From: Melioribacter sp.
GTDB taxonomy: Bacteria > Bacteroidota > Ignavibacteria > Ignavibacteriales > Melioribacteraceae
Direction of reading: 5' to 3'
NCBI GenBank assembly: GCA_003155655.1
Contig: PMDS01000012.1
Span: 1-60,678, forward strand
Length of the DNA stretch: 60,678 nt
Both the position numbers and the translations under genes were made by a program. Every line of letters begins with the position of its first letter. Position 1 is the stretch's first letter. The notes beneath the pieces are model-generated. The model was not told the DNA's origin and made no database searches. It saw nothing but the letters and a program-made list of their open reading frames with translations. Shown piece after piece: positions 12,791-17,094 of the stretch.

Positions 12791-12889
12791 CATAATTTTA
12801 AAGAAATTTTTTCTCTTTGACAGACAGCACCTCCTGTTTTTTTCCTGTTTTTAACAATTTTCAAGCTCAAAAAAATAAAATTCAAAACT

Positions 12890-13240
12890 TTATTTACTTT
12901 TTAGAATCTTGATATCTTTATTAGATGCACATATAACTTCAGAAGTCATCCCGGTAAATATTCCGTGCTCAACAATTCCTGCCCTTTGATTTAATAATGC
13001 TGTAAGCTTATCCAAATTTTTTATTGCACCAAAATTTGCATCAAGTATAAAATTATTTTCATCTGTAATAAAATTACTTCCATCGGGGTTTTTTCTTTGT
13101 AAAATTTTTGCACCTAATGACTCCAAATAATTCTTTTCAACATTTAAAGCATATTGAATTACTTCAACCGGAACAGAAAAATTTGTGCCAAGATGCTTTG
13201 ATAATTTTGTTTCATCAACAACAACAATAAATCTTTTGCT
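12890..13240 (-). pseudogene. rpiA: 3' half of a disrupted rpiA
   Basis: Reading back from the stop at 12890 the frame gives the C-terminal half of ribose-5-phosphate isomerase A: KRFIVVVDETKL, then LGTNFSVPVEVI, GSNFITDENNFILDANFG, LNQRAGIVEHGIFTG. The frame is closed by a TGA a little upstream of 13240, and the N-terminal half with the GxGxT loop and the DGADEVD motif is missing at this place. An intact rpiA lies at 15038-15748 and is clearly a different, diverged copy. A matching N-terminal remnant is found at 16620-16754, so the original gene seems to have been split by the island between them. Confidence 0.75.
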
Positions 13241-13450
13241 AGAACAAATATTTTTCGGGAATAGATCATTACTTTTAATTCAGAAAGATCGAGATTATCA
13301 TTATAAAAAAAATGCAATGGTTTATAGAGAAATATTGTCATGGATTTTTCCAAATGCACAAAGCTATTCTGTATGCGAATACACTATAATATTAAACAAA
13401 ATTCTTTTCTTATGATTTCAATAAATCTTACTGTCATTTATTTGATTGTT

Positions 13451-14446
13451 TCAAACTGAGATGATTTTTCTTATTGCGAGTAGTATTATTTTTCTATGAT
13501 CAAAAACTAAATTCTCTGGAAGTTCATTAATATCAAACCATCTGGAAGATTTCGCATCTCCGCCCGCTATAGCATTCAGATTAGTTTCCGAAACAAATGC
13601 GATTGATACAACATGAAGACGGGGGTCTCTATCGGGCTCTGAAAAAAATCCCAATTCTTGAAAGAACAATAAATTAATACCAGTTTCTTCAATAACTTCT
13701 CTTTTTAAAGCATCTTCAACAGTTTCTCTATTTTCAACAAAGCCACCAGGTAAAGCCCAACCCATTGGTTCTTTTAATCTCTCGATAAGCAAAATTTTGT
13801 TGTGAGGTGTATTAAAAATTACTGCATCCACTGCGAGCTTAGGATATATTTTTAAATTACGTCTAATGAAATTATTATTTTCTTTTTTATACAAATTCTT
13901 TTGGCAAAAACACGAAATAATAATACTTTTAAGTAGTTCTAAAGATGTTTCACCATTAAAATGGGGAATTATAAAATTAAAATTTACATATTCTTTAAGT
14001 TCGGTTTGTAATAATTCAATTCTTTTATCTACACTTTCATTATACAATGATTCGCGACTTTCTAAATGCTGAACAAGTTCGTCCATGTTTGTTGGTAAAA
14101 TAAATATCAAAACAGCATCAGGAAATTTTTCTTTAAATATTTGAGCTAAAAAAACATCTAAGATAAAAATAGCATGTTTGTTTTTATCTATCTCTTTTTC
14201 AATTTCCGATTTTGAAAGGCCATACCAATGGTTGTAAATATTTGTGTGAACAATAAATTCATTATGATCAAGTTTTTTAAGGAAATCTGTTTCGTTGATA
14301 AAAAAGTACTCAAAATCATCTTCCCCTATTCTTTTTATTCTAGTAGTATGTTTTTGGGGCATATAGAAATCGGCAAGGTATTTAATTATATTTTTGCACA
14401 AGAAACTTTTACCTACCCCGGATGGACCACTTAAAATAAAAATCAT
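13451..14446 (-). CDS. Guanylate kinase-like / Nudix hydrolase fusion
   Basis: 331 residues. Residues 1-175 form a guanylate kinase-type P-loop domain with GPSGVGKSFL and the later YGLSKSEIE and FILDV elements. Residues about 200-331 form a Nudix domain with the complete box GGFVENRETVEDALKREVIE-ETG; the surrounding AVIFN...LLIERLKEPMGWALPGGF resembles ADP-ribose pyrophosphatase and NrtR-type Nudix domains. The fusion is unusual. The ATG at 14446 lies one base after the stop of the upstream membrane protein; the upstream TTG in frame would overlap it. The domain pair suggests a nucleotide-salvage or nucleotide-cleaning enzyme. The substrate is not known from sequence. Confidence 0.75.
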   Translation of the reverse strand: MIFILSGPSGVGKSFLCKNIIKYLADFYMPQKHTTRIKRIGEDDFEYFFINETDFLKKLDHNEFIVHTNIYNHWYGLSKSEIEKEIDKNKHAIFILDVFLAQIFKEKFPDAVLIFILPTNMDELVQHLESRESLYNESVDKRIELLQTELKEYVNFNFIIPHFNGETSLELLKSIIISCFCQKNLYKKENNNFIRRNLKIYPKLAVDAVIFNTPHNKILLIERLKEPMGWALPGGFVENRETVEDALKREVIEETGINLLFFQELGFFSEPDRDPRLHVVSIAFVSETNLNAIAGGDAKSSRWFDINELPENLVFDHRKIILLAIRKIISV

Positions 14447-14447
14447 A

Positions 14448-15032
14448 TTACCAATCTCTCGTAACGGTAAGCGCAACTAACATTATCAAAATTAGTACAC
14501 AATCAAACACCCAAATTATTGTGTCTAGCCTAGAAGTGGTAAATAATAATGGTGCAGTAACAACCATCGTACTAATACTTATTACAATAAAACCTAAAAA
14601 AACAAAAAAAGTGTTTAGAATTTTCCTTAATCTTCTAAATTTATCCTTCTTACGATGGAAGTGTTCCCATGATGCAATAATATTTAGAATATCTTCTCTT
14701 GTGATATTCTCTTTGCTTCGAATAAATATTTGAATTACTTTTTCAGGAAATTCATCTGTAAAATAAATTCTGAATTTATTAACTATTATATCATTATTTA
14801 GATATACCCAACAAATACATGAGGAAACTAATGGGATTAATAAAAGAACCATAAGATTAATTGGTTGATTAGTAAATGAGATAGAGATTATAACCCCAAT
14901 TGCTAAGAAGTTAGAAATAAAAGCATTTTCACGAATAGTTATTCTATAAGTCTGTTCTGCTTTTAGAGCTAGATATTCAGATTGCATAATCGCAATCAGT
15001 TTATCAATTTCTTTTGGATTTTTTTTATCCAT
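14448..15032 (-). CDS. Four-helix membrane protein of unknown function
   Basis: 194 residues with four predicted membrane helices, in two pairs (about residues 38-54 and 59-77, then 137-158 and 165-190). The N-terminal cytoplasmic part carries EYLALKAEQTYRITIREN, a helix with alternating charges, and a cytoplasmic loop of about 60 residues lies between the helix pairs. I do not recognise a named family with certainty; the build recalls small membrane proteins found beside nucleotide-processing enzymes in conflict systems. It is translationally packed between rpiA (5 bases) and the kinase-Nudix gene (1 base), so it belongs to the same operon. Confidence 0.65.
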   Translation of the reverse strand: MDKKNPKEIDKLIAIMQSEYLALKAEQTYRITIRENAFISNFLAIGVIISISFTNQPINLMVLLLIPLVSSCICWVYLNNDIIVNKFRIYFTDEFPEKVIQIFIRSKENITREDILNIIASWEHFHRKKDKFRRLRKILNTFFVFLGFIVISISTMVVTAPLLFTTSRLDTIIWVFDCVLILIMLVALTVTRDW

Positions 15033-15037
15033 CGATG

Positions 15038-15748
15038 CTATAGGTTATTTGAAGCTACAATTATTTCCACATTGTAATTAATGAAAAGACCACTTTCAAT
15101 CACACCAGTAACTGATTTTATTTGTCTTTCTAAGTCATTATTAATCTCATTAAATTTTGCATCCAAAATAAAGTTTCCATTTTCAGTTATTAATGGACCA
15201 TCTTTACCTTTAGCAAATCTTAAATTGAGACTTTTTAATCCTAGTTCATTAAGTTCCTTTTCTACATACAATAATGATTCCGGGAACACTTCAATTGGCA
15301 CAGGAAAGTTCGTCCCTAAGTTATTTACTAATTTGGAATCATCAACTATTATGTAGTTAATAAAGCTTGAGTTCATTAAAAGTTTTTCCTTAAATAACGC
15401 TCCCCCTCTTCCTTTAATTAAATTTTTATTAGGGTCGACTTCATCAGCACCATCAAACAGCCAGTCTGGTTTACTTTCAATCATATTGGTTAATGGGATA
15501 CCAAGACGTATACAGGTCATTGAAATTTCAAAAGAAGTAGGAATGGCTTTGATTTTTAACTTTTCCCTTTCAATTTTTTTTGAAATTGAAAACAAGGCAA
15601 GATAAACAGTAGAACCAGAACCCACCCCAATAATGTCACCATCTTTTACTTTTTCAGCAATTTTGTCAGCGACTTTTTGCTTTCCTTCTTTATTAATAAT
15701 TGTTTCAGACCAAGATAGATCTTTAAGAATATCACTTTTCCAATTCAT
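15038..15748 (-). CDS. rpiA: Ribose-5-phosphate isomerase A
   Basis: 236 residues that interconvert ribose 5-phosphate and ribulose 5-phosphate. All key elements are present: GVGSGSTV phosphate loop (about residues 41-48), FDGADEVDPNKNLIKGRGGA with the catalytic acid and the lysine-glycine loop, VDDSKLV, and the C-terminal GVIESGLF block. An N-terminal extension of about 18 residues precedes the usual start of the family. The copy is diverged from the rpiA remnants at 12890 and 16620, and it lies inside the segment that separates them, so it probably replaces the gene that was broken. Confidence 0.9.
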   Translation of the reverse strand: MNWKSDILKDLSWSETIINKEGKQKVADKIAEKVKDGDIIGVGSGSTVYLALFSISKKIEREKLKIKAIPTSFEISMTCIRLGIPLTNMIESKPDWLFDGADEVDPNKNLIKGRGGALFKEKLLMNSSFINYIIVDDSKLVNNLGTNFPVPIEVFPESLLYVEKELNELGLKSLNLRFAKGKDGPLITENGNFILDAKFNEINNDLERQIKSVTGVIESGLFINYNVEIIVASNNL

Positions 15749-15825
15749 AATTGAAATTTAAGATTAAGTTTAAAGAATAATTAAGTTTTATATCTATTAA
15801 GATAAAATGTATTTTAAAAAATTAT

Positions 15826-16467
15826 CTATATTGACAATGGAAATTCATTTTTTAAAAGGCGTTTCCCATTTATACTTATACTAAGATAATAATTTGTCAT
15901 TCTTGGAACAAAATTTTTTATCGTAATTATTTTTTTTGTTTTAACCCAATTTTGTGATTCCTTGTTAAACTCTATACCATCTATAGTAAAAGACTTTTTC
16001 TTATTAGAAAATAATTGGAGACTTGATTTTAAGGAAAGCCAAAAAATCCCGTTAATCTCTTGGGTGTTTGGAGAAATGATATTTAAAAAATTTGGAATGT
16101 TTATCATAAAAATATCCTGAAATTCTCTATTTTTTATTTCACCAATATCAATAACTTCTGTTCGTTGTCCTAAGTAATATAATCGGGTAAATATTATCCC
16201 CAATCCAAGTTCCTCCTTAATTTCTCTAGTTATATTCTTTTTTGTTTCTCCTTTTAAAAAATGACCAGCAACACTTATATCTAAAAGATTAGGAAAAGAA
16301 ATAGATGGAGACCGCAATTGAAAAACCAAATAATTTATATTTTTGATCTTAGTAAGGATCCAACAGTGAAATGTCTTATGCCAGAGCCCTTTTTTATGAA
16401 CTTCGGATCTGTCCGCGCTTCCAATCTTTATTTGGTTCGCACTATAAACGTCGATTATTTCTTTCAT
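15826..16467 (-). CDS. Nudix hydrolase, isopentenyl-diphosphate-isomerase-like subgroup
   Basis: 213 residues. WHKTFHCWIL near residue 29, FQLRSPSISFPNLLDISVAG, then the Nudix box FLKGETKKNITREIKEELGL. The WHxxFHxW opening and the 'DISVAGH' wording are those of the IDI/YfcD-like Nudix group, whose members often hydrolyse nucleotide sugars or other diphosphates. The box is intact. The gene lies 77 bases upstream of rpiA in the same direction and probably starts the operon rpiA-membrane protein-kinase/Nudix. No strong ribosome binding site is visible. Confidence 0.75.
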   Translation of the reverse strand: MKEIIDVYSANQIKIGSADRSEVHKKGLWHKTFHCWILTKIKNINYLVFQLRSPSISFPNLLDISVAGHFLKGETKKNITREIKEELGLGIIFTRLYYLGQRTEVIDIGEIKNREFQDIFMINIPNFLNIISPNTQEINGIFWLSLKSSLQLFSNKKKSFTIDGIEFNKESQNWVKTKKIITIKNFVPRMTNYYLSISINGKRLLKNEFPLSI

Positions 16468-16619
16468 CTTATTATTTTTATATTAGTTGTAATTAGCATT
16501 ATAGACTATAATTTTATCATCACAATCGAATATTAAATCAATCTGGTTTGCATTTTACGTGTCGTTAGTCTAATTCCATATTTCTACGTCTCATGTTTTT
16601 TTACCGAGCCTAAAATGCC

Positions 16620-16754
16620 TTATATTTTTTTAATCTTAAATTTTTCACGTACAAATTGGACAATATTGCTTGGGTCATAAAACACTAATTCACATCGTGA
16701 GATTCTTTCGACAGCTTTTTCTGCAGCCTTTTTCTTGAGTTGATTAATCTCCAT
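16620..16754 (-). pseudogene. rpiA: Probable 5' remnant of the disrupted rpiA
   Basis: A 44-codon frame from the ATG at 16754. MEINQLKKKAAEKAVERI is the usual opening of RpiA (ELKK.AAEKAVEYV), and what follows matches in length: ELVFYDPSNIVQFV lines up without a gap with the family's MVVGLGTGSTVxFV. The glycine-rich loop itself has been lost, which fits decay. The frame ends at 16620, where the island sequence begins. Taken with the 3' half at 12890-13240 this would be the other end of one broken gene, with about 80 middle codons missing. Region 16468-16619 shows nothing else I can support. Confidence 0.5.
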
Positions 16755-16974: not shown

Positions 16975-17094
16975 ATGATTGATTTTGATATAAGAAAATA
17001 TCACAAGAAAAAAAGAAGAAGAGTTGCAATTTCATTCTTTATTTTTGCGCTGATTGTTATTAACCTAATAATGTACCTGATTTCAAAAGGGTAA
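16975..17094 (+). CDS. Small single-helix membrane protein
   Basis: A 39-codon frame: a short acidic start, the very basic stretch KYHKKKRRRVA, one membrane helix (ISFFIFALIVINLIMYLI) and SKG at the end. AAAGGA lies 8 bases before the ATG. An in-frame ATG 15 bases earlier is possible. The positive-inside rule puts the N-terminus in the cytoplasm. It lies 24 bases before miaB and is probably in the same transcript. No family is recognised. Confidence 0.55.
   Translation: MIDFDIRKYHKKKRRRVAISFFIFALIVINLIMYLISKG

Follow-up and report, generated by a model that had tools for sequence, protein, structure and literature searches.

How a housekeeping gene comes to lie in two pieces around a second, complete copy of itself is the question raised by rpiA in a Melioribacter sp. 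genome. The window analysed here is a whole contig of 60,678 nucleotides (PMDS01000012.1 of GenBank assembly GCA_003155655.1; C95 among the 137 contigs of the 4.62-Mb genome). Read 5′ to 3′ on its minus strand, the locus carries the start of the native rpiA, a NUDIX-like gene, a complete rpiA, a membrane-protein gene, a gene that fuses a guanylate-kinase-like domain to a NUDIX domain, and finally the 3′ portion of the native gene; the four genes in the middle make up an island of at most about 3.3 kb. A search of the whole genome with PF06026 (E ≤ 1) gave two matches only, both at this locus. Sequence comparison confirms that the native rpiA of this bacterium is split by an operon carrying a complete rpiA, and the gene was probably replaced in place, horizontally, by a xenolog that came with cargo through recombination of a foreign four-gene operon.

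The C-terminal remnant of the native gene (12890-13231, minus strand) has a frame that is open up to the stop codon. It matches PF06026 at 12920-13243 with 102.6 bits over profile positions 62-171, and its protein is 77% identical to the RpiA of one genus-mate (G005) and 71% identical to that of another (G001). The N-terminal remnant begins with an ATG at 16754 and aligns with the N-terminus of the RpiA family, and its first 19 codons (16698-16754, minus strand; MEINQLKKKAAEKAVERIS) show little decay. Over codons 3-19, its DNA is 59-78% identical to six genus-mates, which are 71-88% identical among themselves; over codons 20-35, compared without gaps, it is 38-52% identical to relatives that share 67-88% with one another. 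Further inwards both remnants continue in a decayed state: the 5′ part at 16626-16697 has lost the phosphate-loop motif and contains indels, and the 3′ part at 13232-13301 is frameshifted (both minus strand). A gapped alignment of the 72 nt past codon 19 to a relative (L039) has 50 identities, 16 mismatches and 17 gap positions, and that of the 70 nt upstream of the undecayed C-terminal part to the same relative has 49 identities, 15 mismatches and 19 gap positions. When the extensions were anchored and the best of six relatives was taken every time, none of 300 dinucleotide shuffles reached the observed score for either remnant, while anchored tests against single relatives had a mixed outcome. 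The native remnants can be traced inwards to about 16626 and about 13301. Their continuation past these points towards a loop of the protein is only suggestive (13/200 and 8/200 shuffles attain the score), and when the middle pieces were aligned locally with no anchor they did no better than shuffles. What appears missing or unreadable of the native rpiA is the loop and about 35 conserved codons; the 80 middle codons that an earlier, sequence-only reading of this DNA had counted as lost were an overestimate, since both remnants extend inwards with indels.

The loci of same-genus relatives show the gene before it was broken. An undivided rpiA was present in all eight loci fetched (L034-L041), and in seven of them it is divergent from miaB at a distance of at most 1.3 kb, the arrangement that the sequence-only reading had named as informative; no miaB was matched in the 9.2 kb fetched for the eighth (L038). 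A ninth genus-mate (G010) has the same rpiA-miaB layout on a contig that terminates inside rpiA, just before the loop. In the window, the N-terminal piece, the operon and the C-terminal piece have the order and strand expected for one gene. The proposal that one native rpiA had been broken and had left both pieces was borne out by the PF06026 match, the identity to genus-mate RpiAs, the alignments at both ends and the genus synteny. An origin of the remnants from different genes was ruled out, as both match one native gene in the right order and with the synteny of the genus. The complete RpiAs of the genus carry 17-71 extra residues in a single loop before the DGADE motif, in-frame, in 8/8 cases (L034-L041), and the inserts consist of differing short tandem or palindromic DNA repeats, as judged by eye. 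Among other members of the family, L042, L043, L044 and L048 have 13-29 extra residues in the loop and L046 and L047 have none. The island lies at or beside this loop. As a separate observation, additional residues also occur past the DGADE motif in L038, L040 and the family member L045.

The complete RpiA of the island (island gene 2, 15038-15748, minus strand, 236 aa) scores 180.6 bits against PF06026 and 202 bits against the rpiA equivalog model TIGR00021 (cut-off 126.4); its score against NF001924 (191.4) is slightly below the cut-off of 192. The GSGST, DGADEVD and KGRGGA motifs, which we take to be catalytic, are all present, and we infer that the protein has isomerase activity. In comparisons with RpiAs of the genus, family and order, its best segments reach 29-44% identity. 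The earlier suggestion that the operon between the remnants includes a complete rpiA holds. Among 391 genomes of the class, island RpiA was matched by its own genome only (E ≤ 1e-45), and among 395 genomes of the phylum it was matched by 16, its own included (E ≤ 1e-40). Five genomes of other families stand apart, with RpiAs 61-68% identical to island RpiA, and in a 53-row tree island RpiA groups with those five (the f22/f55 group) with a support of 100/100, which makes it a xenolog from another part of the phylum. Its placement inside the group has 92/78, and the bootstrap of this tree had not fully converged. In four of these five closest relatives (L184-L187), RpiA stands in a row with pentose-phosphate genes. 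In L184 its neighbours, named by Pfam, are transketolase, transaldolase, 6-phosphogluconate dehydrogenase, glucose-6-phosphate dehydrogenase and a 6-phosphogluconolactonase-family protein; L185-L187 have a like row with one or two extra genes in between, named by reading sequence starts. This context indicates that island RpiA descends from an ordinary housekeeping enzyme. The best PDB matches of island RpiA are 3ixq and 1lk5 (about 146 bits), both presumably archaeal, and that of a genus RpiA is 2f8m (164 bits); an archaeal origin was rejected because the tree places island RpiA with members of the same phylum. RpiA was also matched by 16 phage records, of which 13 are unannotated, and by 89 plasmid records, always with less than 60% identity. 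In the fifth of the closest relatives (G411, L188:7160-8782), the neighbour is instead a PNP_UDP_1 phosphorylase gene, which the island-type RpiA gene follows at a distance of about 55 bp, plausibly as a nucleoside-salvage pair.

Does the host need this copy? RpiB is encoded in this genome, in 11 of 12 genomes of the genus and in all nine that are near-complete, and a broken rpiA may therefore be tolerable without any replacement. The idea that the insertion was neutral because it supplied a replacement rpiA is thus unproven: neutrality cannot be credited to the replacement alone when RpiB is also present.

The other three island genes make up the cargo. Island gene 1 (15826-16467, minus strand, 213 aa) encodes a NUDIX-like protein that reaches PF00293 at the cut-off (21.1 bits). 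Its best plasmid relative is a plasmid-borne protein of Thalassospira marina (36% identical over 99%); it had no phage match and no match in 261 other genomes of the phylum (E ≤ 1e-20). Island gene 4 (13451-14446, minus strand, 331 aa) starts at ATG 14446, with TTG 14476 as a possible alternative, and joins a guanylate-kinase-like domain (PF00625, 91 bits, residues 3-176) to a NUDIX domain (PF00293, 75.9 bits, residues 203-321). This fusion was matched by 312 plasmid and 82 phage records, none of which covers 80% of it. The kinase-like domain has a match in 157 of 164 genomes of the order; most of these matches run from residue 2 to around residue 200, which is what gmk would give, and no second fusion of this kind was among the matches listed for them. 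Of two scans of viral contigs, one had no RpiA relative and the other gave a single NUDIX-only match. PADLOC assigned no family to three of the four island genes; in the fusion it reported PDC-S07 over the NUDIX part (3.4e-11) and weak matches to mad8 (1.8e-4) and JetB (0.003).

Island gene 3 (14448-15032, minus strand) encodes a small membrane protein with four long helices and no Pfam family. It is separated by 5 nt from the RpiA gene and by 1 nt from the fusion gene, so these three genes look like one translational unit. The best 80 of its 95 relatives from genome contigs are mostly of cyanobacteria and actinomycetes by title, and two plasmid relatives carry the annotation integral membrane protein. 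We inspected 84 loci, made up of these 80 and four plasmid loci. A phosphorylase-type gene lies within 4 kb in 69 of the 84, a count that has no background control; one Calothrix plasmid locus is present twice (L054 and L098), and counting it once gives 68 of 83. A NUDIX gene was found nearby in 25/84 loci and an RpiA or Gmk-like gene in 0/84. Among the neighbouring proteins checked are fusions of phosphorylase domains with caspase or TIR domains, and one NB-ARC/NACHT-type protein. The island membrane protein belongs to a family found at phosphorylase-linked loci; none of the four island genes is of the PNP_UDP_1 type, and RpiA stands in its place. The structure model of the membrane protein has a pLDDT of 92. 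It had no PDB match at E ≤ 0.001 (112 at E ≤ 10, best 1.4), and its rows in VIA-align are helical bundles within the stated noise of the tool, so no function can be read from the predicted fold. Since relatives of the membrane gene mostly adjoin phosphorylase-type genes, the cargo may be immune-like; judging from phosphorylase/NUDIX immune-like loci, our best guess is that its targets are nucleotides or ADP-ribose and that the membrane protein is the executor. As an observation beyond this locus, the loci L082-L161 define a family of membrane proteins of about 190 aa without a Pfam entry, spread over cyanobacteria, actinomycetes and others and mostly near phosphorylase-type genes, which is a candidate for an uncatalogued immune effector.

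These results can be joined into the in-place replacement proposed above. Recombination would have brought a foreign four-gene operon into the native rpiA, either at the insert-tolerant loop or beside it, the middle of the native gene would have been removed or would have decayed, and the operon would have supplied a complete RpiA descended from ordinary RpiAs elsewhere in the phylum. The operon has the same orientation as the broken gene, so it may be transcribed from the native promoter region, though it may also have a promoter of its own. Several results weigh against this account. A promoter-like site (10/12) lies at 16525-16498, directly before island gene 1, and might serve the operon in place of the native promoter, though shuffles are about as rich in such sites (29 observed versus 24.8 in shuffles); no terminator-like site was found at the locus (shuffle mean 1.1). 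No convincing terminal repeats or target duplication mark an integration: among 16 families of direct repeats and the best 25 of 46 inverted pairs (the longest), the nearest candidate is an AT-rich pair (12860-12880 and 16620-16640, 81%) that lies near the island ends and not at them, the ends being blurred by decay. The four island genes show no common donor in the sequences compared. The five genomes with the closest RpiA match no other island gene within the 16-18 kb fetched, the fusion is matched in 0/271 genomes of family f22 (E ≤ 1e-38, a search that had no positive control), and the genomes searched included none that could have donated all four genes. The island genes have a G+C content of 28-31% versus 34-38% in the four neighbouring genes measured, and this is weak evidence for foreignness because the native C-terminal remnant itself has 28.5%.

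The uneven decay of the remnants also fits the account poorly. The C-terminal part has 297 nt free of indels, with dN well below dS relative to its relatives, and 4 of the 52 residues invariant in five relatives are altered; in leave-one-out comparisons, functional copies change 2-3 of 54-55 invariant residues and the remnant 4-7. This suggests that it left selection recently or is selected still. Thus, the outer remnants look almost undecayed, whereas the inner pieces have many gaps within 70-72 nt, a pattern that a single old insertion followed by uniform decay predicts poorly and that makes more than one event likely. The island may have arrived with older rpiA fragments from an earlier host and recombined through them, or later recombination may have renewed the outer parts of the remnants.

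Several other explanations were weighed against in-place replacement. It is hard to ascribe the presence of an rpiA-carrying operon inside rpiA to chance, as rpiA is about one gene in several thousand, and this argues for a mobile element dedicated to rpiA, which would insert there and bring along its own copy so that the insertion does no harm. Such an element would share its logic and layout, an insertion in a housekeeping gene together with a complete divergent copy of it, with the recA element of Vibrio cholerae (PMC4405046). We consider it unlikely: none of the four genes has a Pfam match to a recombinase domain (the membrane gene being without a family), the end repeats are unconvincing, no second copy was found by RpiA in the 391 class genomes (E ≤ 1e-45), and the membrane protein gave only three weak partial matches in the 395 phylum genomes (E 0.003-0.005). 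Island gene 4 and the C-terminal remnant are separated by 207 bp that have only short matches elsewhere in the genome (best E 0.005). A site-specific element with recognisable ends was rejected on the repeats described above. Of the earlier statement that an element breaks rpiA, the break stands and the mobile element is doubtful.

Alternatively, island RpiA may work for the cargo: it could, for instance, handle the sugar in a nucleotide-based immune system, where it would stand in for a nucleoside phosphorylase, and its landing in rpiA would have been permitted because RpiB makes rpiA dispensable. The 5-nt coupling to the membrane gene, the phosphorylase-type genes near its relatives and the presence of RpiB throughout the near-complete genus genomes would fit, but none of the 84 membrane-gene loci has an RpiA nearby and the closest relatives of island RpiA are ordinary pentose-phosphate enzymes by context, and we regard this as doubtful. 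An assembly artefact, in which repeat inserts hampered assembly and a foreign contig was joined into rpiA, is very improbable; the assemblies of two genus-mates do break in or near rpiA, but an artefact would take two misjoins within one 60.7-kb contig, and decayed rpiA sequence running inwards from both sides is not expected of a misjoin. A more speculative proposal, to which we give little credence, is that the cassette acts in immunity or nucleotide stress as an island that secures its own retention, resides in the rpiA of this lineage and spreads between strains by homologous recombination through the rpiA flanks, the inner indel-rich fragments being flanks from a previous host. If so, the only complete rpiA would sit on the cassette and its loss would cost the cell RpiA.

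In-place replacement of rpiA by an island has partial precedents. The closest is the recA mobile element (RME) of V. cholerae S24, which, as summarised in PMC4405046, breaks recA and carries a 23% divergent recA; it spans 32.8 kb, encodes a phage integrase and has 9-bp terminal inverted repeats, and its excision and targeting were demonstrated. Both the RME and the rpiA island lie inside a housekeeping gene and bring a complete divergent copy of it together with functional cargo (putatively functional in the rpiA island), and the outcome is the same; the rpiA island differs in its small size (four genes), in the lack of a visible mobility gene or clear end repeats, in a xenologous replacement, and in RpiB as a backup of the broken gene. 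In Gloeobacteraceae, a native rpiA lineage was replaced by a horizontally acquired rpiA, as inferred from trees, and rpiB is present too (PMC13237429). Our case is alike in the supplanting of a native lineage by a foreign rpiA alongside rpiB, but that account describes no island in the old gene, and here native remnants flank the newcomer and three unrelated genes. In Streptococcus suis, the space between rpiA and trmE is taken up by a variable defence locus with restriction-modification (R-M), abortive infection (Abi) and CRISPR-Cas cargo (PMC5398294); the likeness is swappable defence-type cargo adjoining rpiA, although the figure legend mentions no disruption of rpiA. Conflict systems linked to phosphorylases and TIR domains with membrane (SLATT) effectors, outlined in PMC7159879, resemble the relatives of the island membrane gene, which lie near phosphorylase, TIR, caspase or NB-ARC/NACHT-type genes; unlike those systems, the island has no phosphorylase, STAND or GTPase gene, and SLATT membership of its membrane protein, which has no Pfam match, is unsupported. 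In the literature searched (including PMC8195603), largely at the level of listings, we found no case of an rpiA split by an rpiA-carrying island. Here a distant homologue would have replaced a gene of central metabolism in place, and the two scars of that event can still be read. This suggests that a replacement copy can travel in the company of immune-like cargo even when it brings no recombinase.

A marker based on rpiA can mislead in this genus. PF06026 had no match in 3/11 same-genus genomes, and a loss of rpiA in these was considered as a parallel to the broken gene and then withdrawn, because contig ends and incompleteness may account for the missing matches. The contig of G003 ends about 50 bp 5′ of miaB (end of L173), that of G010 ends inside rpiA (L174:1-190), and G008 is 66% complete and has no miaB match. 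In G003 and G010, the repeat loop may have disturbed the assembly and so produced the apparent loss. Two small open reading frames (ORFs) were also seen around miaB. Between miaB and rpiA, L034 and L037 have a similar ORF of 133-136 aa (KMEETEKYFFDHEKL...), which is not among the ORFs of three other miaB-rpiA intergenic stretches checked. In the window, a 39-aa ORF with one hydrophobic stretch lies at 16975-17094 on the plus strand, just upstream of miaB. Of 10 same-genus stretches, four (L034, L035, L037 and L174) contain relatives of it that are 44-56% identical, and weaker matches occur in L046 and L048.

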